Part shown: piece after piece, positions 3,338-64,000 of the stretch
How positions within the stretch are numbered: position 1 is the first letter of the stretch
Layout of the letters: every line of letters starts with the position of its first letter
Origin: Agriterribacter humi
GTDB taxonomy: Bacteria; Bacteroidota; Bacteroidia; Chitinophagales; Chitinophagaceae
DNA length: 64,000 nucleotides
NCBI RefSeq assembly: GCF_009192765.1
Contig: NZ_VOHQ01000012.1
Coordinates: 94,501-158,500, forward strand
Direction of reading: 5' to 3'
Position numbers and translations under genes: made by a program
Notes under the pieces: generated by a model
Databases searched by the model: none
What the model was told of the DNA's origin: nothing
What the model saw: the letters and a program-made list of their open reading frames with translations, nothing else

Positions 3338-4696
3338 TTATTTCAATTGATTTATAAGTTTTCCTTCAAACGCCTTTTTTAAAATACTTTGCCTTAATGC
3401 CTCGGCCTGTTGCAGGCTTTCGGTAATGCTTTCTTTCATTTTATCGGCTACGCTGAGGCGGCTTTCGATGGCTTCAACAATTACAGCTTGCTCTTCGAAT
3501 GAACAAACAGGAAGAGTTATTAATATCATTCGAGTTAATCCTAGATCCTGATTGCCGACACCATGAGTATATTTCTGAGATTGCTTATAGCAATGTGTAG
3601 AATTCAAGACATGCTCCAAATAAAATGGATTTACAGATTTTAATGTTTTTAATACTGCAACATGCACCCAAACATTAAATTCAATATCGTAAGTATTTAC
3701 TCTTGCTATACCAGTTGTTCCACCTTTTGTGTAAAGAACATCACCTTTCTCAGGCTTGCATCTTTGTGATAGTGCATTGTGCAGTTCTTCTGATATAAAT
3801 TTTGAACCACTAAAATCAATTCCTGTAGGTCTAATATTGCCGCCAGAAATAAATGGTATTCCTATAGCCTGATATTTTGGACTATAATGTGGCCCATCCT
3901 TAACTGACCATAATAAGTCACCAAGCCTAACCCAAGAAAATTCGCCAGGCAATTTTGGCAATTTCGACAACTCTTCATCTTCAATAGATGGTATTGGTTT
4001 CGACTTTATTTTTTTTAATTTTTGTTGCTTTTCTTTTTCAACGCTTAACTGTTTTACAAATTCCTCTCCCTTTATTGAATTCTGTTTTTCATTTCTCCAT
4101 TGCTCTGTTAGCTTTCCCTCAAACGCCCATTTCAACACCGCCTGGCGGTAAGTTTTTAGTTGTTGCTGCGCGGTTTTTAACTGTTCTATGCCTTTGTCTA
4201 ATTCACTAAAGAGTTCTTCTATTTTGGAAACAATGGCTTGTTGGGTGGGTTTGGGGGGAATCAATAAATCATAATTCCAAAGTATGTTTGGGTCAACATG
4301 GGGAATACCAACACCTTTTGCCCTTGTGTTTATATCAAGATATTTTGATTGTAAGAAATAATAAGCATAGTTATTATGCATGTCCGGAAAATTCAGCTTA
4401 ACTAAAGTGCTACCTAATGCACCTTTTATTGCTTTGCCAACATATCCGGAACGGGAACCATCCCAAACCATTAAGAAATCTCCATCTTCACATAAAGCAC
4501 AGCCAACCCCGTCAGTATATTCATCAATAACTTCTTTCTCAAACGCCTTGATATTCACATATGGAATTGAACATTCTTTTGTCTTTTCCTTTGAGATACG
4601 CTTTGGCTTTTTTCCTTTTACAGAAATTACATATTCACCAACCTTCACCCATTTCCAACCTTTTGGCAATTGCTTTATATTTTGGTCTTGTATCAT
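3338..4696 (-). CDS. hsdS: Type I restriction-modification specificity subunit HsdS
   Basis: A 452-aa specificity subunit with the classical two-TRD layout. TRD1 (about residues 1-150) starts with LPKGWKWVKVGEY and ends in the conserved LLIPPKPTQQAIVSKIEELFSELD. A coiled-coil spacer (150-235) includes the ILKWAFEGKL-type motif AVLKWAFEGKLTEQW. TRD2 begins at LPGEFSWVRLGDL and closes with EEQAVIVEAIESRLSVAD and SILKKAFEGKLI. The two conserved spacer segments set the distance between the half-sites recognised. The gene itself looks intact, but HsdM, which carries HsdS to DNA, survives only as a stub downstream. Confidence 0.93.
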   Translation of the reverse strand: MIQDQNIKQLPKGWKWVKVGEYVISVKGKKPKRISKEKTKECSIPYVNIKAFEKEVIDEYTDGVGCALCEDGDFLMVWDGSRSGYVGKAIKGALGSTLVKLNFPDMHNNYAYYFLQSKYLDINTRAKGVGIPHVDPNILWNYDLLIPPKPTQQAIVSKIEELFSELDKGIEQLKTAQQQLKTYRQAVLKWAFEGKLTEQWRNEKQNSIKGEEFVKQLSVEKEKQQKLKKIKSKPIPSIEDEELSKLPKLPGEFSWVRLGDLLWSVKDGPHYSPKYQAIGIPFISGGNIRPTGIDFSGSKFISEELHNALSQRCKPEKGDVLYTKGGTTGIARVNTYDIEFNVWVHVAVLKTLKSVNPFYLEHVLNSTHCYKQSQKYTHGVGNQDLGLTRMILITLPVCSFEEQAVIVEAIESRLSVADKMKESITESLQQAEALRQSILKKAFEGKLINQLK

Positions 4697-4937
4697 GATT
4701 CCAGCTGCTAGTTTTCTTTAATCCTTCTCTTAAATAAGTGACAAATAATTGATTACTAATAGTTTAAAAATAGGTTCTGTTTTTGTAAACAAGGAGAGTT
4801 TTTGCTTCGCTTCATTATGTTCCTGCACCTTTGTTTTGGTTTATAGTTGTGATTTGCTTTTAAATTATCCTATATTTGTATTAAGTCTGCTCTGCATGAA
4901 CGTCGGCTCCACGCCGTTTCCTTCACAAAGTGAAGGA
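4697..4937. other. Intergenic stretch between DUF3800 gene and hsdS with two hairpins
   Basis: This gap holds a promoter-like, CRISPR-repeat-like element at 4846-4878, listed separately. Two short strong hairpins follow at about 4903-4937: a 4-bp CGGC/GCCG stem, and an 8-bp stem TCCTTCAC/GTGAAGGA with an AAA loop. On the minus strand the hairpins lie just after the DUF3800 stop codon and could end or stabilise its message. On the plus strand they would be the first structure in any transcript from the element. Confidence 0.5.
4846..4878 (+). promoter_or_regulatory. Solitary CRISPR-half-repeat-like sequence with promoter boxes
   Basis: The first 23 bases (4846-4868) match the first 23 bases of the CRISPR repeat in crRNA sense at 22 positions; the single difference is T for C at position 16. 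The same segment starts with TTG and is followed, 21 bases on, by TATATTTG (4871-4878). This fits the Bacteroidota promoter pattern TTG-N19-21-TAnnTTTG. It points right, into the 3' end of the DUF3800 gene in antisense. Both readings, a stray repeat or a promoter, come from sequence alone. Confidence 0.6.
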
Positions 4938-5813
4938 TTAGTGCAATGGTGGGCTTATTTTATTTTCGGCAGTTAAAGGATTCTTAGGCCCATAATAGTT
5001 TTTCCAACCGGCGATTTTTTCTGAATCGTACAAATCAATCACTACAGATATCTTTTCCTTCAAATAATTATAATAGCGAAGTTCCCCTTTTTCAAAAACA
5101 TTTTGAACCGCCCAGCAGAAATAGTCTGACACATTTAAGAGCGGTTCTTGTATTTGTTGTGTTACATTAAAAACAATATTTGAAATAATATCCTTCCGAT
5201 TTATTGGATCATACGATGTACCGTCCTGATCCTCTTTGATACTTTTGAAATTAATACTATTTGCTAATCGTTCTTTTGCTTTTTCCAAAGCCAACTCCAG
5301 GTTTTGATTTTTGGTACTTTTTCCTCTTTCTGCAACATGAAGAATAAGTTTCTCGCCGCCAGTTTTGTTAAGTTTATTTTTCAAAAGATGCGAGAGAAGG
5401 TCTGCATAAAAATATTGTTCTTTTCCTTTATGCACTGTTTCATACCGTTCTATAGATTTCCTGCCAACTACCGCTTCAAAACTACAGTCAAGACTTTTAA
5501 TAAAATCCATAAATAGTTTTCTTACCTCGGGTAAGTCATCTGTGGCGTGAAAGAAATAACCTTTCGATGCTTTCTTCTTCCTCACAGATACAACATCAAA
5601 ATAGGGATTGGTTGCTACTTCATTCTGTAGCGTATGAATGGTATTTCTTATTTCAGTAAGCGGTTGTCTAAATTTTGCCATGCCGATGATAAAAGATTTA
5701 CTTACTCCATCAACTCCTATTATACTTGTTTTTCCTTTACCATAAAAGGCAGTATCTCCGGCTTCGTCTAAAAAGCGATGATTGGGTTTTATATTTTTAT
5801 TCTTTTTTGTCAC
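4938..5813 (-). CDS. DUF3800 domain-containing protein
   Basis: A 291-aa protein whose start RFLDEAGDTAFYG is the DEAGD/DESG signature of the DUF3800 family. Members are thought to have an RNase H-like fold with acidic active-site residues and are common cargo of restriction and phage-defence islands; no biochemical role is established. Here it sits between the GxxExxY gene and hsdS, in the same direction. There are gaps of about 160 bp upstream and 240 bp downstream, so it is probably an accessory gene of the island rather than part of a tight operon. It appears full length. Confidence 0.8.
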   Translation of the reverse strand: MTKKNKNIKPNHRFLDEAGDTAFYGKGKTSIIGVDGVSKSFIIGMAKFRQPLTEIRNTIHTLQNEVATNPYFDVVSVRKKKASKGYFFHATDDLPEVRKLFMDFIKSLDCSFEAVVGRKSIERYETVHKGKEQYFYADLLSHLLKNKLNKTGGEKLILHVAERGKSTKNQNLELALEKAKERLANSINFKSIKEDQDGTSYDPINRKDIISNIVFNVTQQIQEPLLNVSDYFCWAVQNVFEKGELRYYNYLKEKISVVIDLYDSEKIAGWKNYYGPKNPLTAENKISPPLH

Positions 5814-5879
5814 GCAGATAATGCCTGATTTAATTCATTAATAATTTTATCGGTTTTGTCGCCAAATAATTGCCACAAA

Positions 5880-5983
5880 TGTCTGAATCAGAATTTTTAA
5901 AATTTTAGAATAAGCAGAATGTGCAATTACTATGTACTATCAATTCTGCCCATTTTGTAATTCTGTAAATTCTAATTCAGACA
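5880..5983. repeat. 104-bp imperfect palindrome bordering the GxxExxY gene
   Basis: The left end TGTCTGAATCAGAATTT (5880-5896) is repeated in inverted form at 5967-5983 with one mismatch, and similarity continues toward the centre around GCAGAAT. Further same-orientation copies of the right half lie at about 6365-6404 and 6495-6532, so each GxxExxY gene copy is preceded and followed by this sequence. The stop codon of the intact gene is inside the repeat. Confidence 0.7.
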
Positions 5984-10542: not shown

Positions 10543-11706
10543 ATGAATATGTTATTAAAAGGTTTTGGTTGTTTTGCACTTGTTTTATGTATCTCCTTAG
10601 CTTCTATAGCTAAAGAAGTACATGGCAATTCTACACCCCAGAAAAATGATACCAGCATCGCCACTACAGAAATAGTTGTGGCAGCGGCAGTTAGCTCTCC
10701 TTCTAAAAACACTGAGGCTGCTGCTATTGCTAAAGAAGAAGTAAAGACGGCGCCTGAAGTAATAGCTGCAGATAAAAGCTTAGTAACCAAGCAAAACGTT
10801 TACAGCAGTTTACATCCCATGTCTGTATCTTTTGTAAGGGCTTATGAAAAAAGGCATGAAGCACGGCTCGAAAAGATCACATCTAAATATGTTCGTCAAC
10901 TGGCGCTCATAGATAAGATAATGATCCGGTATGAACTTCCCACAGATCTGAAATACCTTGCCCTTATTGAATCTGAAATGTTCAATGGTGCAGTATCCCG
11001 CAAGGGAGCTGTAGGACCCTGGCAATTCATGGCCCCCACAGGCAGGCTGATGGGTTTAACCATCAATCGCCACAGGGATGAAAGACGCGATCTCACAAAA
11101 AGCACAAACGCCGCCGCAAAATATCTCAAAATTTTATACAAGCAATTTGACGACTGGCTGCTGGTTATTGCAGCCTATAACGGCGGAGCTTCAAGAGTAG
11201 AAAGCGCCATCAAAAAAAGCCATAGCCGCGATTTCTGGAAATTACAGTACTATTTACCTGCCGAATCAAGAGCGCATGTTAAAAAATTTGTAGCTGCCCG
11301 GTACATTTTAGAAAAACAGGATGAAGAGCGGGTTCCTTTAATGAACATGGAAAAACTCACGGCTGAAAATCTGAATCAATCAACAGTATTATATCTTAAC
11401 GGAAAATTCAATGCAGCTACAGTGGCAAAAAACCTGGGCATGGAAGTAGCTGAATTCAGCATGTACAATCCCGGTTTTGATGACGGAGTAGTGACCAATG
11501 GTTACGACATGAGATTGCCTAAGGATAAAATGGAGAAATTCAACGAAAAACGCGAAGACATCTTAAATGAATGCATTGAAATGATGCTGGCTGGTAACAA
11601 TACTGTTTTCAGTAATGACCGCAGTAACTATCCGGAAGCTATCCACCTTCCTAAAACAAAGGCTATTATGTCTACAGGCACAGATAGAACCATTAAAAAG
11701 AAATAA
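10543..11706 (+). CDS. Lytic transglycosylase, MltD/SLT type
   Basis: A 387-aa secreted protein. A signal peptide (MNMLLKGFGCFALVLCISLA) is followed by a low-complexity Ala/Glu/Ser linker to about residue 85. The SLT domain (about 110-260) has the catalytic Glu in YLALIESEMF, then GAVGPWQFM and the AAYNGG motif, all typical of family 1 lytic transglycosylases that cleave peptidoglycan with formation of 1,6-anhydro-MurNAc. The C-terminal ~90 residues resemble one weak LysM-like segment (LYLNGKFNAATVAKNLGM...MYNPGFD). It is monocistronic and ends at a bidirectional terminator shared with pabB. Confidence 0.9.
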   Translation: MNMLLKGFGCFALVLCISLASIAKEVHGNSTPQKNDTSIATTEIVVAAAVSSPSKNTEAAAIAKEEVKTAPEVIAADKSLVTKQNVYSSLHPMSVSFVRAYEKRHEARLEKITSKYVRQLALIDKIMIRYELPTDLKYLALIESEMFNGAVSRKGAVGPWQFMAPTGRLMGLTINRHRDERRDLTKSTNAAAKYLKILYKQFDDWLLVIAAYNGGASRVESAIKKSHSRDFWKLQYYLPAESRAHVKKFVAARYILEKQDEERVPLMNMEKLTAENLNQSTVLYLNGKFNAATVAKNLGMEVAEFSMYNPGFDDGVVTNGYDMRLPKDKMEKFNEKREDILNECIEMMLAGNNTVFSNDRSNYPEAIHLPKTKAIMSTGTDRTIKKK

Positions 11707-52734: not shown

Positions 52735-54813
52735 TTACCTCAACCAAACCGTTTGTGTAAACGCACCGTTAGCGGCTGCATCCCAGGCTTCTATGCGCAC
52801 CCATTTTCTACCCGGCAAATTTAATGAAACCCTGAATTTTTGTTTATCAAAAGGAAGCGTAGCATCCAGGTTCATCTTATGCCTGTATACCTGGTTTCCG
52901 TCACCCGATATGATCTCCACAAAGTTTAAGGGGAAGGTCCACTGCAGGTTAAAAGCAATAGCTGCTTTCCCGTTTTCCGCAAGCTCAGCCGTATCGCCAG
53001 CCTGCTTTTTGTTCACCGTAAATGATGGGATCAATACTTCGCCGGTGGTTGAAAAAAAACGCCCTTTTTGTAAAACATCCAGAATGCTTTGCCAGCCTTT
53101 GTTGTAAGTAGGCAAGTTGTTTAACTGCAAATAGTTTACATTCAAATGCGCATACATTTCGTTCTCCGGCTCAATTGTAAATACATCAGCTTCTGCCAGC
53201 ACTTTCTTTTGAACGCCCCAGTTGTTCATATCATCCATCAGGTCTAACACTCTTTTTCCCAGCCGGGGCTGCGAAAGATCAGCAGGCATCGCTTTCCAGG
53301 CTGCACCCAAAAAACGATCCGATTTAAAGAATGCTGATGTCTTATATTTATCAGGATAATCTACCGAGCCTTTGGTTCTCGGGTGCGCTGTCCATGCCAG
53401 CCCTTTTTCTTCCTTTAATAAATCCAACATTTCTGTTGCATTGGCAACGCGGTAAACCGCTCCATACACCGGGTGTACCGTCTTATAAGGAACACTGTCG
53501 CTGCGCGACATGATCCAGTAAACAGGCTTTGGAAAAAGTTGCAGCCAATGCCCGCCAAAAAATTCATTGGGCTCCTCCCCGGGTAATAATAAAAAATTCT
53601 CAGTTGAAAGTCTTCTGCATTGTTCAAACAAAGCATGCAATTCTTTCAAACGTTGTTCATCAGGACCCTTAGGATGCGCAGTGTAATGAAACTCAGCAAG
53701 ATGAACAATATCAATTCCTGTTTGTTTAAATACATTGATAAAACTGGGTGTATCGGGCACCGGCTTGCCAGCCAGTACCACATTCATCACAAACTCATTG
53801 TGAAAATGGCTTGCCATTGTTTTATATCCCGGAAGTGAAACATACCGATCACCGTTCGTAAATTTTTTCACATCATTCAGTAATGCCTCCGGACCAGTTG
53901 TACCCAGTAAACAAAAAAAGTTTAATCGCTGTTCTGTTCCGGGAGGTGCATTAAACCAGGGTACAAAGCGGTTATCACCCGTTAATTCCTGCCGTATACC
54001 CAGGCCATAGCCATCTGTGATTTTACGGTAATGGTTGCCATGCCATGTAAAGCGCAGGTTAAATGCTTCATCGAGCGGATAGAAATATTGGTGAGGCGCC
54101 GGAAAAACAGCGATGCCGCCTGTTTTTGTGTTACCAATGATGGTACGATATTTTACCATCTCATTTTTACTGCTGTCGGTAAATTGTGGTTGAACAGCCT
54201 GCATTTCATCGTTCACATCGGCCCATGAAATGCTGTTCCATTTCATCTCTTTGCTTATCAGTCCGGCATCATATACAATAGCGGTAGAATCTTTACTGGT
54301 GGATACAACAGCCGCTATGTTCATCAACGGGCTGCCATTATACAGGGTAATTTCAATGGTTCCGCTAAAGCCGGGTGTTGTAATTTCATGTATGGTAATG
54401 ATCGTTCTTGATCCGGAACTGCTTACCGATGCCGATTTTTTATTGATCTCTGCAAGATGTAACTGGTAAGGCTTGAGATGCACTTTGTCGAAAAAAATAT
54501 TCCATCCGTTTTGCGATACCAGGTCGCGTTTGCCAACCGTAAGCAAAAACACGGGATCAACATCTTCCACAATATTTTTTACCGTGGCGCCCTCCAGTAC
54601 GTTAATGCTTTTAAACAGGGGTTCATTCCTGTTTACACTCAATACTACCTGTGCACGTTGCTTTTTACCAGAGGGCCATGAAACAGAAAACGTGTTTTGG
54701 GCAACCTGCACCTGCGCCCCATTTTTATCGCTAAAACCTTTCAGGTTAACCGGCATCTGGGCATGCAGAACCGAAAAGCCCATTAGTAAAACAATAATGA
54801 ATGCGTACCGCAT
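52735..54813 (-). CDS. Secreted protein with PHP-like central region
   Basis: A 692-aa protein with a signal peptide (MRYAFIIVLLMGFSVLHA). The first ~350 residues are beta-rich. The middle (~365-560) resembles a PHP-type metal-dependent phosphoesterase barrel by its spaced histidines and acids (SHFHNEF, HLAEFHYTAHPKG, LLPGEEPNEFFGGHW, LAWTAHPRTKGS), and the end is a beta domain. The canonical PHP HxH start is not exact, so the enzyme class is uncertain. It lies next to the regulatory genes of the polysaccharide locus and could process a modified sugar (inference). Confidence 0.6.
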   Translation of the reverse strand: MRYAFIIVLLMGFSVLHAQMPVNLKGFSDKNGAQVQVAQNTFSVSWPSGKKQRAQVVLSVNRNEPLFKSINVLEGATVKNIVEDVDPVFLLTVGKRDLVSQNGWNIFFDKVHLKPYQLHLAEINKKSASVSSSGSRTIITIHEITTPGFSGTIEITLYNGSPLMNIAAVVSTSKDSTAIVYDAGLISKEMKWNSISWADVNDEMQAVQPQFTDSSKNEMVKYRTIIGNTKTGGIAVFPAPHQYFYPLDEAFNLRFTWHGNHYRKITDGYGLGIRQELTGDNRFVPWFNAPPGTEQRLNFFCLLGTTGPEALLNDVKKFTNGDRYVSLPGYKTMASHFHNEFVMNVVLAGKPVPDTPSFINVFKQTGIDIVHLAEFHYTAHPKGPDEQRLKELHALFEQCRRLSTENFLLLPGEEPNEFFGGHWLQLFPKPVYWIMSRSDSVPYKTVHPVYGAVYRVANATEMLDLLKEEKGLAWTAHPRTKGSVDYPDKYKTSAFFKSDRFLGAAWKAMPADLSQPRLGKRVLDLMDDMNNWGVQKKVLAEADVFTIEPENEMYAHLNVNYLQLNNLPTYNKGWQSILDVLQKGRFFSTTGEVLIPSFTVNKKQAGDTAELAENGKAAIAFNLQWTFPLNFVEIISGDGNQVYRHKMNLDATLPFDKQKFRVSLNLPGRKWVRIEAWDAAANGAFTQTVWLR

Positions 54814-54956
54814 GATCAATCGATGGTTTAATTTCCTGTAAGATAAAGAGGGCAGGGCAATTTTTTTTATTATTGAATTCAAAAAAAATGTACCTTAAAG
54901 GCTGTGATTGCTGCTATTGGTATAGTACCCCAACGATAACCTAAACCCATTGTTCC

Positions 54957-54978
54957 ACTCTACATAATAATTTAGCAA
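54957..54978 (+). repeat. CRISPR-repeat-like fragment beyond the tracrRNA terminator
   Basis: CTACATAATAATTT followed by AGCAA matches the plus-strand CRISPR repeat (GCTACATAATAATTT, then GAAAGCAA) except for three missing bases. It is located about 35 bases downstream of the tracrRNA 3' end. It may be a relic of an old repeat. Confidence 0.5.
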
Positions 54979-55012
54979 TAGATAGAAGGAAGATTTTAGG
55001 AAGTAAGGGCAT

Positions 55013-55100
55013 AAAAAAGCGATCCCAACCTAAGTCGGAACCGCTTTAAATGTTTTCACAACGATAAAATCTTATTGTGATTTGCTTCAAATTAATAAGC
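55013..55100 (-). ncRNA. tracrRNA
   Basis: The anti-repeat (minus strand AATTTGAAGCAAATCACAAT) is complementary to the first ~24 bases of the CRISPR repeat in crRNA sense, with one bulged base (TTC against TTTC). Next comes a hairpin TCACAA/TTGTGA around an AT-rich loop. A terminator stem AAGCGGTTCCGAC / GTTGGGATCGCTT follows, with TTAG loop, 13 pairs counting three wobbles, and a T tract. This anti-repeat, hairpin and terminator order is that of type II-C tracrRNAs. It is transcribed away from cas9, its 5' end only ~20 bases from the cas9 start codon. Confidence 0.88.
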
Positions 55101-55108
55101 CAAATATA
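55101..55108 (-). promoter_or_regulatory. -7 box of the tracrRNA promoter
   Basis: On the minus strand this reads TATATTTG, a perfect match to the Bacteroidota -7 consensus TAnnTTTG, placed a few bases before the anti-repeat. The corresponding -33 region falls on the T-rich start of the cas9 coding sequence, so tracrRNA and cas9 initiation signals overlap. Confidence 0.65.
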
Positions 55109-55121
55109 AATAAAAATAGAC

Positions 55122-58100
55122 ATGATAAATAAAAAAATTTTAGGGATAGATATTGGAACCACCTCAATCGGCTGGGCAATAGTTGAAGCAAAAACAGAAA
55201 AACCCGTAAAATACAATGAGTATTTTGAGGATGATTTGCCTGAAACAAGAACTGACACAAATAATGATAGAACTGGAATTCACATAGGCAAAAATGGCTT
55301 GCCCGCAGTGGGTGTAAGAATTATCTCACAAGAGGGTAAAATGTTAAGCCGTTTCAATGAAGGGAAAAAATTGAATGAAAAAACTAATGAAACTCCAACT
55401 GCTCAAAGGCGAAGAATACGTGCTGGTAGAAAACTGAAAAGCCGTTATAAATTGAGAAGAGATAAGCTTTGCGCCGTACTGGAAATATTGGGAATGCTGC
55501 CTGACGCTTCTTATAGAAAAGTGAAAAATAAAAATGGGAAGGAGATGTGGAAAGCGATAGAAGCAAAAGATATAGATGGCAATAACGGAAAATGGTACAC
55601 TAAAAAAAGAGAGTATGAAGTTGATGAAATCGGTAAAAAGAAGAAGAAAAGAAAAAACGAGGAGGGCATTATTACCGGAATAGGCGAAGACTTATATAAA
55701 CTACGAAACAATGCTGCGATTGATCCTTTAGAAGATAGAAGAGATTGGGGTAGAATTTTGTTGCACTTAAATCAATGGAGGGGATATAGTAGCGATAGAT
55801 ACAGCAGCAATGAAGACGATGAACAGACTGATGATGGTTTTTATACCTCGCTTGTAGTAGATGATGTTGTTGACATAAAAAAAATATATAAGGACAAGCT
55901 CAATAAAAAGCTTGATAAAATTCAATATCAAATAAAATTTGAAAATGGAGATATTGGGATAGATGTTGTGAAAGTTGGTGAAAGTTCCTTTTACTCAAAA
56001 TTTAAAAAAGGCGAGGTTGCCACCTATAAAAAAGTAGAGGATGAAAATGATAAAAGTATAATTTATATTACGTGGCAAAATCTAAAAAAGGAGGCTTGGG
56101 CATACCGTAAGTGGCTAATCAACGATAGTATAGAAAAGTATATCCAAAGTAAAAGAGGTACGGTCGGTTCCTATTTTTATAATAACTTTTTTAATCAGGA
56201 ATATATTAAAACTATTCCTGAAGAAAATCGTTTAAAACGCATTCGCCATAATGTGGTAAACAGAAATTGGTATGAAGATGAATTTGAAACTATCTGGAAA
56301 ATTCAGTTTGAAAAACATAAAGCAAATTTCACAAAGGAGTTAGTTAATAAATGTATAGATGCTTCATTTACAAAAGATGAATCGGTAAAAAAAGAGTTGC
56401 GAAAAATTGGCAACCCTGAATTACAACTTAAAGCATTAATCAGGGATAAAATAATTTATTACCAGCGTCCCTGGCAACAAGCCAAAAACAAAGGAGAATG
56501 CAGATTTGAAAAGATACCGGATATTAAAAAGGATGAGGATGGTAAAATAATTCCACATAGGGACGGTAAAATCCATTATAAAGGAAGAACCGTTATTCCC
56601 CGCAGCCATCCTTTACATCAGGAATATAAAATATGGCAACAAATAAATAATGTCAGGATATGGTTTCATCCGAAGGATGAAAAGCAAATTGATTTGTTTG
56701 AAAATTCAGAGGTTTGCTCAAAGCTTTTAGGTAAAACCCCTATTGAAATTAAAGAGCTTCTTTATGAACGATTGCAAGACAGAAAAGAGCAATCATGGAG
56801 AACGTTTGTAAATGAAATATTTAACATTGAAGTAAAATTAAAAAAGGAGGGAGAAAAAAAGAAACCAACTGAAACGGAATATTATTCTATTAACTACATT
56901 AAAATATCAAAAAAAGGGGAGGAACAAGACAACCTATTAAAAGGCAATAAAACAAAGAAACAAATTGATGATGTTTTAAATATTAATGATAAAAGTTGGT
57001 ATTTAGAAACAGCGAAAAAAGGTAAAGACAGGCATAAGCCAGATAGAACAAACAAAGATGGAAAAACAATCTCATCGTTAAATTACAAAACCAGAGAATA
57101 TACTGTTTCAAACCTGCAATTACTTTGGGAATGTATTTATGATCTTACGGGATATAAAGCGGGCAATGATAGCGCAAATATTGAAATGATTAAAAATAGA
57201 ATTCGTAACCATTTCAGTGCTGATATCATTTCTGCTCCTCAATGCTTATCTCTTGCTAAAATTAAATTTGACGATGCTGGAATGGGGCAACTTTCGGCAA
57301 AAGCTATTCGCAATCTATTGCCATTAATGGCAGTTGGAAAATATGCAGAACAATATCCTATGACTGAAAAGGCTGATAAAAAAATAAAGAGTTTAATTGA
57401 GCTTAATCAGCAGGAACAAAATGAAACCAATGATGATTTGAAACTTTATTCCTTAAAAGAATTTATTACTGATAAAAGTGCAAGGATAAAGCTTTCTTCA
57501 AAAATGTCGGAAGAGGAATTTAAAGGTTTGAATTATTGGGAAGCAGCAGCCGTAGTTTATGGAAACCACTCTAAAGCTGGTATTACTAATATACCATCCG
57601 AAGAAATTGCGAACAGAATAAAAAACCTACAGCCTGTTCCGTTCGGAAAAATGAATAATCCGATAGTAGAAAAAATAGTCAACGAAACCTTAAAGCTGGT
57701 TCAATTAATTTATCTGACTTATGGAGGATTTGACGAAGTAAGAATTGAATTAAGCCGTGAATTAAAAAATTCAATAGATGACAGAGAGGCGATTTGGGAT
57801 GCAATGAAAAAGAATAACGAACGTAATGATTGGGCTAAAAAAATGTTGCGTGAAATGTTCAATGAAGAGGAATCGGAAAAGGTAGATGTTTCTTTAAGCA
57901 ATGGCAATATTGATAAGATAAAAATAATTGAAGAAGTAGTTGCTAACCGAAAAGGAAAAGAACATGAAGAAAAAAGGAAAAAAGTAATTACTGAGCCTAC
58001 TAAAGCCGATATTTTAAAATACCGTTTATGGTTGCAGCAAGAATTCAGATGCCCATACACAGATGAACCTATTCCTTTTTCTGATGTTTTTTCAAAGCAG

Positions 58101-58931
58101 TTGAGAGTACAGATAGAACATATTATACCCAGAAAACGCTATCCTGACAATTCATTTTCTAACAAAGTACTGACATGGACGGAAGTAAATAGCGCTAAAG
58201 CAGAAAATGGCAATAGAACAGCCTATGAATTTATTATAAGTAAAAGGGATGATAATGATAGTATCCAAATTCCTAACAGAGAACAACCTGTAAGATTAAT
58301 CCCCGCAAAACAATGGGAAGAAAAAGTAAAAGAAATGTTCAAAGGCAGAAAAGCCAAAAATCTGTTAAGACGAAGTATTCCTGAAGATCCAATTAACCGG
58401 GAGTTAAAAGATACTCAATACATCAATAAAAAAATAAGAGAAAAAATCGGGGAAGCTATTGGTATGGACAAAGTTTGGACTACAACAGGACAAATTACTG
58501 ATATGTTGCGTAATGCCTGGCATTTGAATGATAAAGTGATGAAAGAACTGATAAGAGAACGTTATGAGAAGTTTCAAGTAAATTTTGGAAGTGGTTCAAC
58601 GCCTTTAGAAGCTAATACAATTTTTGATAATACAGTTTGGAATAAAGAAACACAGAAGGCCGAAATCAGAAAAGAATTTCCAAGTTTTTCAAAACGGCTT
58701 GATCATAGACATCACGCTTTGGATGCAATTATTATAGCCTGTACCAAACAGCAGCATATACAACTACTGAATACACTAAACGCTCAATTTGAATTAACCG
58801 AACTTGAGCATGAAGATGAAAAAGAAATAGCTCAAAAAAAGAAATACAAAGCTCTTCAAAGTCTGCTTTATGAATACGTTAAAGACGAAACCGGTAAACC
58901 AAGAAAAAAATACTTTACACCATGGAAATGA
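55122..58931 (+). CDS. cas9: Cas9 (type II-C), N-terminal part ended by a frameshift
   Basis: A 1,269-aa product with the Cas9 nuclease core. RuvC-I ILGIDIGTTSIGWAI has D10, the Arg-rich bridge helix is RRRIRAGRKLKSRYKLRRDKL, and RuvC-II VRIELSRELK has E876. HNH has LRVQIEHIIPRKRYPD with H1000, and RuvC-III RHHALDAIIIA has D1201. It then reads YFTPWK and TGA. Homology continues without a gap in the next frame (NEDEFIPQVKDALSKIIV), so one extra A at 58926-58928 breaks the gene and removes the WED and PAM-interacting domains. Catalytic residues are all intact, which argues for recent damage, a read error, slippage, or a working split protein. Much more AT-rich than cas1/cas2. Confidence 0.93.
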   Translation: MINKKILGIDIGTTSIGWAIVEAKTEKPVKYNEYFEDDLPETRTDTNNDRTGIHIGKNGLPAVGVRIISQEGKMLSRFNEGKKLNEKTNETPTAQRRRIRAGRKLKSRYKLRRDKLCAVLEILGMLPDASYRKVKNKNGKEMWKAIEAKDIDGNNGKWYTKKREYEVDEIGKKKKKRKNEEGIITGIGEDLYKLRNNAAIDPLEDRRDWGRILLHLNQWRGYSSDRYSSNEDDEQTDDGFYTSLVVDDVVDIKKIYKDKLNKKLDKIQYQIKFENGDIGIDVVKVGESSFYSKFKKGEVATYKKVEDENDKSIIYITWQNLKKEAWAYRKWLINDSIEKYIQSKRGTVGSYFYNNFFNQEYIKTIPEENRLKRIRHNVVNRNWYEDEFETIWKIQFEKHKANFTKELVNKCIDASFTKDESVKKELRKIGNPELQLKALIRDKIIYYQRPWQQAKNKGECRFEKIPDIKKDEDGKIIPHRDGKIHYKGRTVIPRSHPLHQEYKIWQQINNVRIWFHPKDEKQIDLFENSEVCSKLLGKTPIEIKELLYERLQDRKEQSWRTFVNEIFNIEVKLKKEGEKKKPTETEYYSINYIKISKKGEEQDNLLKGNKTKKQIDDVLNINDKSWYLETAKKGKDRHKPDRTNKDGKTISSLNYKTREYTVSNLQLLWECIYDLTGYKAGNDSANIEMIKNRIRNHFSADIISAPQCLSLAKIKFDDAGMGQLSAKAIRNLLPLMAVGKYAEQYPMTEKADKKIKSLIELNQQEQNETNDDLKLYSLKEFITDKSARIKLSSKMSEEEFKGLNYWEAAAVVYGNHSKAGITNIPSEEIANRIKNLQPVPFGKMNNPIVEKIVNETLKLVQLIYLTYGGFDEVRIELSRELKNSIDDREAIWDAMKKNNERNDWAKKMLREMFNEEESEKVDVSLSNGNIDKIKIIEEVVANRKGKEHEEKRKKVITEPTKADILKYRLWLQQEFRCPYTDEPIPFSDVFSKQLRVQIEHIIPRKRYPDNSFSNKVLTWTEVNSAKAENGNRTAYEFIISKRDDNDSIQIPNREQPVRLIPAKQWEEKVKEMFKGRKAKNLLRRSIPEDPINRELKDTQYINKKIREKIGEAIGMDKVWTTTGQITDMLRNAWHLNDKVMKELIRERYEKFQVNFGSGSTPLEANTIFDNTVWNKETQKAEIRKEFPSFSKRLDHRHHALDAIIIACTKQQHIQLLNTLNAQFELTELEHEDEKEIAQKKKYKALQSLLYEYVKDETGKPRKKYFTPWK

Positions 58932-60792
58932 AGATGAATTTATTCCACAGGTAAAAGACGCTTTGAGTAAAATAATTGTAGCTCACAAAAATTCAAATGT
59001 GCTTACAAGCCCAAGTAGAAACAAACAACTTGATAAATACAATTACACATCAATTTCTATCAGGCAAGGATTGCACAAGGAAACCTTAATCGGTAAGCGT
59101 AAATTGTATAATTCAACACTTGTCCCGATTGCTGAAATAATTGAAAGAATATTTTCTGAAAAGCGAAATTCCAAAAAACGTTTTGATGAAATAATTATTG
59201 ATATTGTATTTAAAGAAAAGTTTCAAAAACAGCTGACTTTATTATTTGAAAAATTCGCATCACTAATTGAAACGGATGAATTAAAATCAAAACTTCTTGA
59301 TGAAATAAATAACAACAAATCGACCTATTTTGAGGCAGCAACAACTTTTGACTCTATACCTATTAAGCGGGGCACCGAAAGCATCAATAAAGTCAATGTA
59401 GATAAGGTTATTGACAAAAGGATACAAAGGTATATAATTTACAAAAACGAATTGGTTGACATCCTTAGTAAAGAATTAAATAGCAAGCCTAATGACGAAA
59501 GAAAAAAAGAATTGGAGAAGAAGAAGAAGCAATATCTCGAAACTCCCATTTACTACAATGCTTTATATGACATTAGAATGAAGGATGGTTTTGTAATCAA
59601 TGATGAAGAAAGAAGGTGGCTCCCTTTATTTGAATTTAATAAGTCAATGATTGAGCATATTGAATATGTTAAAAACAAAAAGGGTAAAAAAGTAATAAAC
59701 CATGCCCGGACAGAACAAGTAAAGCAATTTATCACCGGATATGAGCATGAATTTACTCCTGAAAATGTATTGATTAAATATCCAATAATAATAGGTGAAA
59801 AAAAGATTGAAATTAAGAAAGCTACTGTAAGAAATACTGCAGGAGTTAATCAATCAAAGAAAAATACAGACAATACAGAAGAAAAGGAGGTCTTGGTTGA
59901 AATTCGTCCCAAGACCTTTGTTGTTTTGGAAAGTAAATTCAGAGCCATTATTACTCAAGAAAAAGAGGGTAATGAACGAAAAGTTAATTTCATCGAATTT
60001 AAAGAAGCATTAGATTATCAAAAACTAACATCAGATTTCATTCAGGCAGAAATAAGAATTCCTAATAAAATAATTCCGCCAAGTCATAAGTTATTATTCA
60101 CACTTAGCAAAAATGATTTGGTTGCACTGCCGGATAAGACAGACGATGTAATAGATTGGAATAACATTTCCTCCCTTTCAAATAAATTGTATCGTGTTTT
60201 AGATTTTGATAGTACTGGTGTTATCCGTTTTGTAAAACATACAATTGCTTCCCCCATTGAATTGAAAGATACGATGAATGCGACAGGATTAAGCAATGAA
60301 TTAGATTTAATGAGTAAAAAACTAAAAGATGAAGAAGAAAACTATAATATTGAAAAAGAAAGAGTAGAAAATCTCAGCAATAACCATTCTATTTGGAAAA
60401 AGAATTTAAGCAAAAATGATTTGAAATTTCATAAGACAACTATTAAAGAAAAAGAAGCTGAGATAAAAAGAGATAAAAAATTACTTAAAGAGCATTTCGA
60501 TGAAAGTGAAAATCTGGAAAAGGCAATAAAAAATTTAGCAGATAAAATTACATTTAATTCAAAAACAGATAAAAAAGGTAAAATTAAAGAAGCTGAACCA
60601 ATACAAGAACCGTTTGAAAGAAAAACTAAAGATGATATTCAAAAAATAATTAAAGTATTCACAGACAAGTTAGGTAAGGAAATTGTTCCTTACTGGGAGT
60701 TCCCGAATGGGTGTTGGAATAGAGAAAGAGCTGAAGAACTATGTCTTTGTTCACCAAAGACAGATAAAATTGAAACACATACTGATAGTTAG
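58870..60792 (+). CDS. cas9: Cas9 C-terminal part (WED/PAM-interacting region) in shifted frame
   Basis: A 640-codon frame that overlaps the end of the first cas9 frame by 62 bases and has its own ATG. After ~20 residues of out-of-frame sequence it carries typical post-RuvC-III Cas9 features: SIRQGLHKETLIGKRKLYN (WED start), TPIYYNALYDIRM, VLESKFRAIITQEKEG, KLLFTLSKNDLVALPD, and LSNKLYRVLDF with FVKHTIASPIELKD. A strongly charged coiled-coil (about residues 480-590) follows before the conserved-looking end YWEFPNGCWNRERAEELC. A separate polypeptide from ATG 58870 is possible but unproven; no ribosome-binding site can be judged in this phylum. Confidence 0.88.
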   Translation: MNTLKTKPVNQEKNTLHHGNEDEFIPQVKDALSKIIVAHKNSNVLTSPSRNKQLDKYNYTSISIRQGLHKETLIGKRKLYNSTLVPIAEIIERIFSEKRNSKKRFDEIIIDIVFKEKFQKQLTLLFEKFASLIETDELKSKLLDEINNNKSTYFEAATTFDSIPIKRGTESINKVNVDKVIDKRIQRYIIYKNELVDILSKELNSKPNDERKKELEKKKKQYLETPIYYNALYDIRMKDGFVINDEERRWLPLFEFNKSMIEHIEYVKNKKGKKVINHARTEQVKQFITGYEHEFTPENVLIKYPIIIGEKKIEIKKATVRNTAGVNQSKKNTDNTEEKEVLVEIRPKTFVVLESKFRAIITQEKEGNERKVNFIEFKEALDYQKLTSDFIQAEIRIPNKIIPPSHKLLFTLSKNDLVALPDKTDDVIDWNNISSLSNKLYRVLDFDSTGVIRFVKHTIASPIELKDTMNATGLSNELDLMSKKLKDEEENYNIEKERVENLSNNHSIWKKNLSKNDLKFHKTTIKEKEAEIKRDKKLLKEHFDESENLEKAIKNLADKITFNSKTDKKGKIKEAEPIQEPFERKTKDDIQKIIKVFTDKLGKEIVPYWEFPNGCWNRERAEELCLCSPKTDKIETHTDS

Positions 60793-61082
60793 CTTTATCG
60801 CTAGCTCAGGATCGAAGAAGATGAGAAATAAAAAATTGTAAGGAGACGAAATTGTTATTCTTCATTTCGTTTTTTTTAGCGAAGCGAAAGTATGTTTAGC
60901 TTTTGTTTTGACAACTGGGCAGGGCAATAATATTATAGTCATTAAATTACGGCAGAAGAGTGAAAGCAGTATTAATGAGCAAAGGGAGATGTGTTTGTAA
61001 AAAACAACAACTATCGTTTTTATGCCAATCTTGCACATACTAAATAAAACCATTATGCGTTCATCATGGAAACCCTTTATCC
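60793..61082. other. Gap between cas9 and cas1
   Basis: No gene lies in these 290 bases. Base composition changes here from AT-rich (cas9) to more balanced (cas1). A separate promoter for cas1-cas2 is likely within the AT-rich last 80 bases. Confidence 0.5.
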
Positions 61083-61977
61083 ATGATAAAGCGAACCCTT
61101 TATTTCGGCAACCCCGCTTATCTTAAAACCAATAACGAACAGCTTGTTGTTGAAATGCATGGTACCGGCGAAACCAAATCAACGCCCATAGAGGATATCG
61201 GGCTACTGATATTAGACAACCAGCAGATCACGATCACGCAGGCCCTGCTGTCCAAATTACTCGCCAACAATACCGCGGTCATCAGTTGCGATGATACGCA
61301 CCACCCCAGCGGCATGCTGTTTAATTTAGATGGCAACAGTCTTCAAAGCCAGAAATTCAAGGCCCAGGTAGAAGCATCGGTTCCCCTGAAAAAACAATTG
61401 TGGCAGCAAACCGTAATGTGCAAAATAGAGAACCAGGCGGCCCTGCTGCAGCACGAAAGGGAAGAATACAAACTATTGCTCACCTATGCCAAAGATGTAA
61501 AAAGCGGAGACAGTGAAAATCATGAAGCAAGGGCAGCGGCTTATTACTGGAAAAGGATCTTCCCCGATTTTCTGCAGTTCAGGCGGGAGCGCTACGGTCC
61601 GCCACCCAATAACCTGCTCAACTACGGTTATGCCATACTGAGAGCGCTGGTAGCAAGAAGTTTAACTTCCAGCGGTTTATTGCCTACGCTGGGCATTCAT
61701 CACCGCAATCAATACAATGCATACTGCCTGGCGGATGATATTATGGAACCTTACCGGCCTTTTGTTGATAAAGTGGTGTGCCAGATTATAAGAGGCAATG
61801 GAAAGTTTTTGGAGATGACACCCAATATGAAAAAAGCCTTGCTGGAAATTCCGGCTATGGATGTGCAGGCAGACGGCCAAAAGAGCCCGCTGATGAATGC
61901 AGTACAGCGTACAACCGCAAGTTTGGCCAAATGCTTTGAAGGAAAGAGCAGGAAGATATTATACCCGGAGCTGAGCT

Positions 61978-61979
<2 letters not shown>
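61083..61979 (+). CDS. cas1: CRISPR integrase Cas1 (type II)
   Basis: A 298-aa Cas1. The N-terminal beta domain is IKRTLYFGNPAYLKTNNEQL...IEDIGLLILDNQQITITQALL. The C-terminal helical domain has metal-binding residues in NHEARAAAYYWKRIFP (Glu), LGIHHRNQYNAYCLADDIMEPYRPFVD (His and Asp/Glu). With Cas2 it inserts new spacers at the leader end of the array. Complete and undamaged. The stop codon is part of a REP-like palindrome that separates it from cas2. Confidence 0.96.
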
Positions 61980-62405
<426 letters not shown>

Positions 62406-62417
62406 GGGCAGGGCGGC

Positions 62418-62508
62418 AGACCTATAAGATTTGCAGGTCTGGGAGCAGCAGGGCAAGACCTATAAGATTTGCAGCCCAGGAAAGCCGCGCGGCAAATCTT
62501 ATAGGTCT
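62418..62508. repeat. REP-like palindrome plus an extra half-site between cas2 and the RAYT gene
   Basis: AGACCTATAAGATTTGC occurs at 62418-62434 and again at 62456-62472. Its exact reverse complement is at 62492-62508, giving a perfect 17-bp stem with a 19-nt loop (62456-62508). The RAYT stop codon (62499-62501) lies in the right arm. Pairs of such palindromes next to a RAYT gene are typical REP/REPIN arrangements. Confidence 0.88.
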
Positions 62509-63101
62509 AAGCCAGGGCCGCTATGATAATCTTCAAACCCTTTTATTCCCCCAAACCAGTCCAGCACCTCAGGTCGCAATAACCAGGCTGGCTCATTTGA
62601 GCGCATAACAGAATAGGAAGACCATTTCCATTTACTCAAATCGATGCAATAGCCATGATGAACGGGGTTGTTATGAATATAATATACGGTAGCCCGAAAC
62701 TGCTCATCACTTTCAATCTGTTTTCGCCGTAAATAATCAATAAACAGAGCGCCCTTCCGGTTATACATTTTATTATAAGCTTTGGCATAGCTGTTGAGCA
62801 GATTAGAGAATCTTTCCATCACAAATTCAGGAAGCAATTCGGGCGAAAATTGTTTATTGTATTTTACTTCATGAAAGTGACGCTCCAATTGCGCTTCCTC
62901 CTTTATTTTAACGATACAATGAAAATGATTGGGAAGCAGGCAATAGCAATACGTGTCCGCAACCGGTGAAATATGTTTGATATAACGGGCGAGAAAAAAT
63001 GCATAATTACCCCCGTTCCGGAACAACTTTTCATTTCCGACAGCTCTGCTGAGCACATGGTATTTTTCGCCGGGTAGTAGCGGCAGGTGGTAATCAGGCA
63101 T
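62499..63101 (-). CDS. REP-associated tyrosine transposase (RAYT)
   Basis: A 200-aa Y1 transposase of the IS200-like RAYT group. The N terminus has LPGEKYHVLSRAVGNEKLF, the HUH motif is in CLLPNHFHCIVKI near residue 60, and the catalytic Tyr region is LLNSYAKAYNKMYNRKG near 115, followed by LFIDYLRRKQI and the conserved YIHNNPVHHGY. Single-copy RAYTs are thought to spread REP palindromes rather than themselves. The adjacent palindromes with matching sequence support this. It sits between cas2 and the CRISPR leader, an uncommon place. Confidence 0.92.
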   Translation of the reverse strand: MPDYHLPLLPGEKYHVLSRAVGNEKLFRNGGNYAFFLARYIKHISPVADTYCYCLLPNHFHCIVKIKEEAQLERHFHEVKYNKQFSPELLPEFVMERFSNLLNSYAKAYNKMYNRKGALFIDYLRRKQIESDEQFRATVYYIHNNPVHHGYCIDLSKWKWSSYSVMRSNEPAWLLRPEVLDWFGGIKGFEDYHSGPGLDL

Positions 63102-63259
63102 ACAGCAAAATACAAAATGGTCTGCGAAAATTACCCGAAACCCGCAAAGTCCCGGACCGCTTTTAGCAGAACAGGAATAAAAAAATGGAGCCGGAGCCCC
63201 ATTTTTTCATTGTAAAACTTAGTCCAAATACATTAAAATCAATCGCTTAGGCAATTCGT
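63102..63259. promoter_or_regulatory. Presumed CRISPR leader region
   Basis: 158 bases between the RAYT start and the first repeat, AT-rich near the array. It is taken as the leader because repeats 1 and 2 beside it are identical while the most distant repeat is degenerate, so new spacers enter here. In crRNA sense (minus strand) it lies downstream of the array. Confidence 0.6.
63179..63208. terminator. Terminator hairpin beside the CRISPR array
   Basis: AAAAATGG...CCATTTTTT forms a stem with an inner GC/GC pair and has A/T runs on both sides. On the minus strand it lies 50 bases after repeat 1 and would end a pre-crRNA transcribed from right to left. Confidence 0.7.
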
Positions 63260-63446
63260 GTTGTATAAGAGCTAAGCTACATAATAATTTGAAAGCAAAT
63301 CACAACATTTGATGATTACAGGCGCCCCCGGTCGGTGTTGTATAAGAGCTAAGCTACATAATAATTTGAAAGCAAATCACAACATACATGGTATTGTTAT
63401 TTTTGGTGGACAGTGTTGTATAAGAGCTAAGCTACATAATAATTTG

Positions 63447-63581
63447 CCGCGTAGTGTTTGATTTTTTTATTGTCGCGGCGAACTTTGGTTGCCGCGTAGG
63501 TTTTTATTCTTTTATTGTCGCGGCGAACTCCGGTTGCCGCGTAGTGTTTGATTTTTTTATTGTCGCGGCGAGCTTCGGTTG
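63447..63581. repeat. Three tandem 45-bp hairpin units inside CRISPR repeat 3
   Basis: Units at 63447-63491, 63492-63536 and 63537-63581, each exactly 45 bases. Each starts CCGCGTAG, has a T-rich middle ending TTTTATTGTCGCGGCGA, and closes GGTTG. GCCGCG and CGCGGC form an inverted pair in every unit. Unit 2 differs from 1 and 3 mainly in the T-rich middle. Removing the 135 bases restores a 47-bp repeat with one substitution. Confidence 0.9.
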
Positions 63582-63659
63582 AAAGCAAATCACAAACAAG
63601 CAGATGTCACTACGGCAACTCCTGCAAGTTGTAAAAGAAATAAGCTACTTAATAATTTG

Positions 63660-63793
63660 CCGCGTAGGTTTTTATTCTTTTATTGTCGCGGCGAACTCCG
63701 GTTGCCGCGTAGGTTTTTATTCTTTTATTGTCGCGGCGAACTCGGGCTGCCGCGCAGTTTTTTGATTTTTTATTATTGAGCGCGCTTCGATTG
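63660..63793. repeat. Three tandem 45-bp hairpin units inside degenerate repeat 4
   Basis: Units at 63660-63704, 63705-63749 and 63750-63793 (the last 44 bases and diverged). The first is identical to the middle unit of the block in repeat 3. The insertion point in the CRISPR repeat is the same nucleotide as in repeat 3. Confidence 0.88.
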
Positions 63794-63813
63794 ATTCACA
63801 CCTATCTGCCGGG

Positions 63814-64000
63814 TCATTCAGCATTTTCTTCTTTTGCAATATTGCCTGTACTGAGGTTATTGCCACAGCTCCAGCAAAATTTTACATTGTCTTTATCCGA
63901 CCTGGCCCCACAGCCGGGACAGATAAATCCAGCTTTGTCCAACCGGCTTTCTTTTACCATAGACGCAGATAATATACCCGTAGGCACCGCAATAATCGCA
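63814..64000 (-). CDS. C-terminal end of a zinc-ribbon protein (partial)
   Basis: 61 codons to a TGA at 63814-63816; the gene continues beyond the window edge. The end holds a zinc ribbon with two CxxC pairs (FICPGCGARS and VKFCWSCGNNL) after a hydrophobic stretch AIIAVPTGILSASMV. The arrangement recalls SPFH or potassium-channel-type membrane proteins with a C-terminal zinc ribbon, where a membrane or filter region precedes the ribbon. This is a guess from the tail only. Confidence 0.7.
   Translation of the reverse strand, partial: AIIAVPTGILSASMVKESRLDKAGFICPGCGARSDKDNVKFCWSCGNNLSTGNIAKEENAE

Follow-up and report, generated by a model that had tools for sequence, protein, structure and literature searches.

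In type II-C CRISPR-Cas systems, new spacers enter at the repeat that is transcribed last, as set out in the parts of PMC12080349 and PMC8092290 drawn on here. How such arrays keep the repeat that lacks its own spacer silent is not yet settled. The sections of Feussner et al. (2025, PMC12080349) considered here report point mutations, upstream terminators and hairpins on the guide for this extra repeat, with 71 of 260 systems unassigned, and a mutation analysis from which repeats differing in length by 2 nt or more were removed. An insert within the repeat would be dropped by such a length filter, so that existing data can be searched again for a class of in-repeat hairpins removed before analysis. 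In Cas13 and type II-A systems, leader-repeat hairpins are described as blocking extraneous crRNA (Migur et al. 2026, PMC13187072, in the part considered), and in the II-C system of Flavobacterium columnare the repeats contain a TTG element, transcription runs towards the leader, and each repeat is considered to have its own active promoter (Hoikkala et al. 2021, PMC8092290, likewise in part). These studies form the nearest literature, and PMC9067536 was drawn on in part; judged by title and the start of the abstract, searches of the open-licence PubMed Central literature listed no description of a hairpin inside a terminal CRISPR repeat.

The array described here lies in a 64,000-nucleotide stretch of DNA (the window) and ends in repeats that are split by hairpin-forming units. 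As with the extra repeat features in the consulted sections of PMC12080349, the repeat concerned is the oldest and first transcribed, and would be expected to be non-productive; unlike the cases in those sections, its letters are largely intact and are split by a hairpin block. The leader-repeat hairpins of the cited part of PMC13187072 likewise involve the first transcribed repeat, however their partner is the leader outside the repeat, whereas here the hairpin lies inside the repeat and opposite the presumed acquisition end. A TTG in the repeat is shared with F. columnare, as far as the portion of PMC8092290 used here goes, with the normal repeats of the present arrays adding a TAnnTTWG box; in contrast to the promoter thought active in each F. 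columnare repeat, the one proposed here is split by the insert in terminal repeats. Read from these comparisons, the hairpin repeat may be a new way of making the oldest II-C repeat non-productive, or a relic with that effect.

The locus and its split repeats

The window holds cas9, a type II cas1 (61083–61979, plus strand; TIGR03639) and cas2 (62070–62405, plus strand; TIGR01573) together, as expected of type II-C, with neither csn2 nor cas4 seen in the list of open reading frames covering 54–64 kb. A tracrRNA with an antirepeat to the array's repeat is also predicted, here and in several relatives; that of the window (55013–55099, minus strand, upstream of cas9) comprises the antirepeat, a nexus and a terminator-like hairpin, with its ends set by eye and a TATATTTG box just upstream. 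The N-terminal and catalytic part of cas9 (55122–58931, plus strand) matches positions 2–775 of the 1070 of TIGR01865, and is followed by an ORF in a different frame (58870–60792, plus strand) that matches no family and is assigned by eye only to the rest of cas9. Within an A-rich run at 58.87–58.94 kb the reading frame of cas9 seems to be interrupted, which would reflect either a decaying locus or a sequencing error. Amongst the relatives, cas9 is a single long ORF with the HHxxDA motif in seven (1216–1694 aa, stop to stop) and an ORF of only 660 aa in an eighth (L083). A search of Rfam with positions 54800–64000 returned no match.

As the tracrRNA antirepeat lies on the minus strand, the crRNA strand of the array is taken to be minus, which makes the split repeats the first to be transcribed and places a terminator-like inverted repeat with a T run (63176–63211, minus strand; by eye) at the crRNA-strand 3' (downstream) end of the array. 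Compared by eye, the cas-proximal flank is alike in the window genome, G011, G009 and G008, with a second version common to G004, G005, G007, G010 and G002, and the distal flanks are not alike. Based on the first-transcribed end, the II-C acquisition rule and this likeness of the cas-proximal flanks, the cas-proximal end is presumed to be the acquisition end and the split repeats to be the oldest, leader-distal ones. Distal repeats are often decayed by eye.

The array comprises two intact 47-bp repeats followed by two repeats that are each split by three units of ~45 bp. Repeat 1, the closest to the cas genes (63260–63306), and repeat 2 (63337–63383), both on the minus strand, are normal and free of units, as a preliminary description of this DNA had held. 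Repeat 3 consists of its crRNA-strand 3' half (63415–63446, minus strand), which carries a promoter-like TAnnTTWG box, the hairpin units at 63447–63491, 63492–63536 and 63537–63581, and its other half, on the tracrRNA-pairing side (63582–63596, minus strand). A spacer of 31 bp (63597–63627), the length originally given, separates it from repeat 4, which consists of a degenerate half (63628–63659, minus strand; four mismatches to the consensus half), units at 63660–63704, 63705–63749 and 63750–63793, and a degenerate remainder (63794–63802, minus strand; by eye). The last of these units is 44 bp long and the most divergent, with 10–14 differences from the other units, and the second unit of repeat 3 is identical to the first unit of repeat 4 (45/45). 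TRF scores of the two unit blocks are 227 and 192.

These coordinates agree with the earlier claim that both repeats are broken at the same point by three ~45-bp units. The accompanying claim, that removal of the units restores 47-bp repeats, holds well only for repeat 3, which without its 135-bp block differs from the normal repeat by one mismatch; repeat 4 is visibly decayed, its four mismatches lying in one half and the other half being a remnant. The hairpin-split repeats 3 and 4 are real, with the recurrence of the split-repeat architecture in other genomes excluding chance. Three units per repeat were seen in the window genome (G000) only, among the genomes examined.

Distribution and position of hairpin repeats

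The array region was matched in nine of the 12 genomes of the window genus (g1), five of which (the window genome, G010, G008, G004 and G005) carry a hairpin-bearing repeat at the distal end. That of G010 has one unit, with arms of CCACG/CGTGG in place of CCGCG/CGCGG, and that of G008 (L048) is the only repeat of its array. A second, decayed copy lies farther out in three of these genomes, at a distance of ~1.04 kb in G010, ~450 bp in G008 (by eye) and 31 bp in the window. The DNA before or between hairpin repeats differs by species: a DUF5053 gene (Pfam) lies in the ~1.04 kb of G010 (L041, 14562–15599), ~450 bp separate the two copies of G008 (L048, 8340–8803), and ~160–185 bp before the hairpin repeat of G004 (L042, 14121–14276) are open in one frame. 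A PHROGs search of the DNA between hairpin copies gave nothing convincing that would indicate a phage origin.

In genus g83, hairpin repeats number five in G393, the first and second of which flank a single normal repeat, and two in each of G299 and G222. The two copies in G284 (genus g21) possess a short, near-perfect stem whose likeness to the g1 and g83 inserts was judged by eye, and a decayed partial repeat lies beyond them. In G316 (genus g23; L134), seven repeats interspersed among normal ones carry an unrelated palindrome at the same site. The search for the unit that the preliminary description had proposed located it, across the 34 contigs of the window genome, in the array only, and single-unit inserts at the same place of the repeat in four further g1 genomes and two further genera. 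The alternative that the unit is a normal trailer feature is thus largely borne out for a single unit, which recurs in trailer-end repeats; the amplification to three was seen in the window genome only.

Of 394 genomes of the family, 120 have a cas1 match. The 74 loci examined come from 68 of these 120 and a few other genomes, with ~52 of the 120 outside the sample; 59 of the 68 contributed 60 regions, and the other nine complete the number. Arrays are present at 65 of the 74 loci, with the distal end resolved in 51 and 14 of the 65 running off the contig. Five short-consensus arrays of the 65 (L091, L095, L121, L127 and L141) were omitted from the distal-end scan, four of them being read by eye (a reading slightly incomplete near L107), and the hairpin repeats of L044 and L081 were recognised by eye rather than by script. 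Hairpin repeats of any kind occur in nine of the 51 resolved arrays, and in G008, which has a single repeat and falls outside the 51. The absence of such a repeat from the other 42 (including L128, which is undecided) indicates that it is not required. Two loci were not counted, L094 having a chain of decayed normal repeats and L128 a replacement (+5).

In the last repeat at L128 (G207, 11070), TTCTGAAAG is replaced by a GC-rich stretch resembling a palindrome, with a net change of +5 bp, perhaps another independent case at the same site. At L139 (G149, 5097–5969), two normal repeats within the array are ~870 bp apart, and the DNA between them includes gene-like sequence.

Searches for relatives used a model of the repeat with one unit. 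Taking the best 10 candidates per genome across the family, matches were listed for 10 genomes, of which G000, G004, G222, G299 and G393 have hairpin repeats and the other five matched through normal repeats; G010, G005 and G008 are absent from the matches listed, so that absence there carries little weight. An order-level search with model R1, again on the best 10 candidates per genome, matched three of 396 genomes, none of them outside the family. A pattern match at L147 (labelled Oscillospiraceae) was not in an array by eye and was discarded as chance.

Hairpin repeats are the distal-most full repeats in seven arrays, with a product of chances of 2.3e-14; these arrays were picked for having hairpin repeats, G393 and G316 (interleaved) and G008 (no normal repeat) were excluded, the second copy of G010, 1 kb farther out, was not counted, and the decayed partial repeat of G284 lies beyond. 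At the opposite end, tested in all but six of the 65 arrays, the two most cas-proximal repeats are without the hairpin form in 58 of 59, the 59th (L086) having one masked repeat. Three normal repeats stand at the acquisition end in 57 of the 59, the exceptions being the array with the masked stretch and the window genome, where the third repeat from this end is already repeat 3. The hairpin thus lies where an element countering ecrRNA is expected, on the first-transcribed, oldest repeat, and also on further repeats in G393 and G316.

The seven G316 repeats (L134, cas1-oriented 4128–5214) carry an identical TCCCGATTGTTCGGGA palindrome and different spacers and alternate almost strictly with normal repeats, with an order from the distal end of L N L N L L N L N L N L (L, hairpin; N, normal). 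This order cannot come from copying of the acquisition-end repeat alone.

Anatomy and spread of the insert

The insert lies at approximately nt 18|19 of the crRNA-strand repeat, cut after base 27–32 of the plus-strand repeat, and is bounded by a TTG direct repeat, with microhomology of 1–4 nt at the cut except in G005 (0) and the special case of G316. When the block is removed and the remainder compared with the normal repeat of the same genome, eight of 12 copies show 0–1 mismatches, with none in G010, G393 L2, G222 and both G284 copies, and one in G000, G393 L1 and G393 L3. There are three mismatches in G004, 12 in the decayed repeat of G005, and four in G316, where the palindrome is a replacement rather than an insertion. 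The remaining copy, in G299 (L081), has 10 mismatches to its own normal repeat and three to that of G222, and may be a remnant of an earlier repeat sequence preserved at the trailer. The comparison left out the second copies of G010 and G008, window repeat 4, G393 L4–L5, G299 L2, G222 L2 and the first copy of G008.

In the stem, which was placed by hand, pairs have changed on both sides in 3/9 cases among six sequences and 4/8 among 16, in each set more than in slid versions (0–2 for the 16); the number of pair types is not above that of shuffles, 453 and 429 of 500 of which reach it, and kinship makes such counts generous. Across 124 cells, 94 pair on the opposite strand and 78 (62.9%) on the crRNA strand, where 22 more are G.A. 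RNAalifold returned no consensus pair for an alignment of 16 sequences, which is partly misaligned. Relative to shuffled inserts, RNA folding is clear only for the three-unit repeat of G000 (z = -3.4), with G010 at -1.9 and the others between -1.3 and +1.0.

The inner hairpin repeats of G393 are separated by three unrelated 31-bp spacers. Its two outermost intervals (L080, cas1-oriented 11076–11253; 35 and 42 bp) are alike, with a local score of 20 against a best of 14 in 2000 shuffles, and unlike true spacers, such that at least part of this series looks to have arisen at the old end by tandem duplication of a repeat together with its interval. No normal spacer separates the two hairpin repeats of G299. 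The preliminary description had also proposed that unit-bearing repeats were copied or that the block passed between repeats; the G393 series and the unit identical in window repeats 3 and 4 lend this partial support, the latter supporting in part an exchange of whole units between these two repeats. Between G393 L3 and L4 the insert differs at 8 of 56 positions and the flank at 11 of 47; in comparisons of insert and flank divergence only one of six pairs reached p = 0.03, and these were not used.

A TTACT/AGTGA-type stem is common to the inserts of g1, g83 and, by eye, g21, and judging from the sequences, descent from a single ancestral hairpin repeat, rather than repeated targeting, is the best explanation of the fixed position. 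The unrelated palindrome of G316 indicates that the site can also take another palindrome. In most arrays, repeats with and without the hairpin share lineage-specific letters, which implies either exchange within the array or regrowth of the array from a hairpin repeat.

Proposed promoter splitting and the rival explanations

The Bacteroidota promoter consists of TTG and TAnnTTTG. In 47 of 55 distinct consensus repeats, TAnnTTWG lies at nt 25–32 of the crRNA strand (220 of 11000 letter shuffles, a contrast overstated by the relatedness of the family's repeats), and in 46 of the 55 a TTG lies 14–25 nt upstream of it. The box is kept in 11 of 12 hairpin repeats, being lost in G005, and the TTG pair at normal spacing in none of the 12, with the insert shifting the distance from 14–24 nt to at least 41 nt, or to 28 nt in the unrelated G316 case. 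We consider the hairpin repeat to be an inherited, promoter-dead terminal repeat of a II-C array, with a probability of about one half. The insert would kill the promoter embedded in the repeat, leaving the terminal repeat unable to start transcription of the oldest spacer, with the hairpin-free form providing the working repeats. Slippage at the microhomology would remove the hairpin, an event that may be selected or simply frequent, and the terminal repeat, which is not duplicated by normal acquisition, could retain it. In the window genome, the unit would then have expanded to three, probably by slippage between the TTG direct repeats, and units would have been exchanged between repeats 3 and 4. 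The normal repeat between hairpin repeats in G393 and the alternation in G316 speak against silencing limited to the terminal repeat, and the data appear to fit both selected silencing and a tolerated relic. If the promoter reading is true, these arrays offer a natural gain/loss pair at one site, which would open the repeat-embedded promoter of Bacteroidota arrays to direct testing. Hairpin repeats would also serve as markers of an array's fixed end and as a record of its collapse and regrowth.

A possible but less probable explanation is that of a neutral relic, in which the insert was copied along with a few spacers or tandem-duplicated at the old end, is absent or lost at the acquisition end, and decays without a role. 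This is consistent with the decay seen by eye in the distal copies of G393 (fourth and fifth), G222, G299, G000 and G010, with the roughly equal divergence of insert and flank between G393 L3 and L4, with the folding of g83 inserts being no better than that of shuffled ones, and with the alike outer intervals of G393, as after tandem duplication, beside three inner intervals that are unrelated 31-bp spacers. However, copying at the acquisition end would require several lineages to have passed through a state not seen now (58 of 59 arrays), and the stem changes on both sides across species do not favour a relic. Rather unlikely, in our view, is a silent seed, in which the hairpin form is a permanent anchor of the array, made inert by its split promoter, from which a collapsed array regrows. 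Acquisition of a spacer would duplicate the anchor, and the duplicate would be switched on once its hairpin had been lost precisely at the TTG/TT microhomology. Arrays are indeed reduced in G008, to one repeat of the hairpin form, and in the window genome, with two normal repeats left; such a seed, if real, would account both for the match in letters between normal and hairpin repeats within most such arrays and for the persistence of the hairpin at the old end, as a one-way switch between archive and working copies.

Blocking at the RNA level, with the hairpin stem pairing the repeat's own GCUUU and so keeping the tracrRNA off the first repeat, appears improbable. The insert does sit on the extra repeat named in the part of PMC12080349 used here, folding of G000 and G010 predicts a GCUUU/GAAGC-type stem, which can also be made out by eye in most of the g1 and g83 copies, and predicted tracrRNA binding falls below that of the insert-free repeat in 7/7 comparisons and in 10 of 11 rows of a second set. 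These rows include the same G000 repeat twice and a G008 row using the G010 tracrRNA, with tracrRNA ends set by eye; against dinucleotide-shuffled inserts they show no added weakening (mean z = 0.06, 11 rows), and binding in G005 is much stronger than that of its shuffled controls. The insert also lies just outside the tracrRNA-pairing stretch, and its stem favours neither strand clearly. With predicted binding weaker than for the empty repeat but no weaker than for shuffled inserts, occlusion of the tracrRNA was dropped as the main mechanism. Still less probable is a mobile, REP-like palindrome inserting specifically into the CRISPR repeat, perhaps moved by the product of the RAYT-like gene between cas2 and the array (62499–63101; 53.8 bits, no Pfam match), although this gene has palindromes beside it, the TTG direct repeat bounds the insert, and the different palindrome occupying this site in G316 has 11 imperfect matches (one or two mismatches) in the rest of its genome. 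The exact G316 palindrome occurs in its array only, within that genome, and the match of the RAYT-like gene falls below the curated cut-off of 80 bits. REP/RAYT systems consist of palindromic units with a RAYT gene, and have many dispersed copies in a genome. The present units resemble them in being palindromic and adjoined by a RAYT-like gene, however no dispersed copies were found, the palindromes beside this gene look different by eye, the inserts were seen in CRISPR repeats only, and their likeness across genera fits descent. The idea, raised earlier, of an element targeting this site meets with no copies outside the array in the window genome, where five of seven hits of a hairpin pattern lie in the array and two chance-like ones elsewhere (four for a reversed control pattern). 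In 11 genomes the g83 insert matched arrays and otherwise gave three short, weak matches, which excludes near copies only, the search being blind to diverged hairpin repeats and missing those of G222 and g1. An assembly artefact at the split repeats is hardly credible: tandem units are a challenge for assembly and the window genome comprises 34 contigs, but the units carry distinct variants and the same architecture is found in other assemblies, including the one-contig G316 and the three-contig G222. Least secure is the unit count of three in each split repeat.

Several g1 genomes (the window at 62400–63101; also L042, L043, L044, L047, L048 and L049) have a RAYT-like gene, or what looks by eye like the beginning of a similar one, either between cas2 and the array or adjacent to it, with palindromic repeats of the AGACCTATAAGATTTGC or AAACCTATAAGGTTTGC type nearby in some. 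By eye, the 45-bp unit and some REPs have TTTGCCGCG in common.
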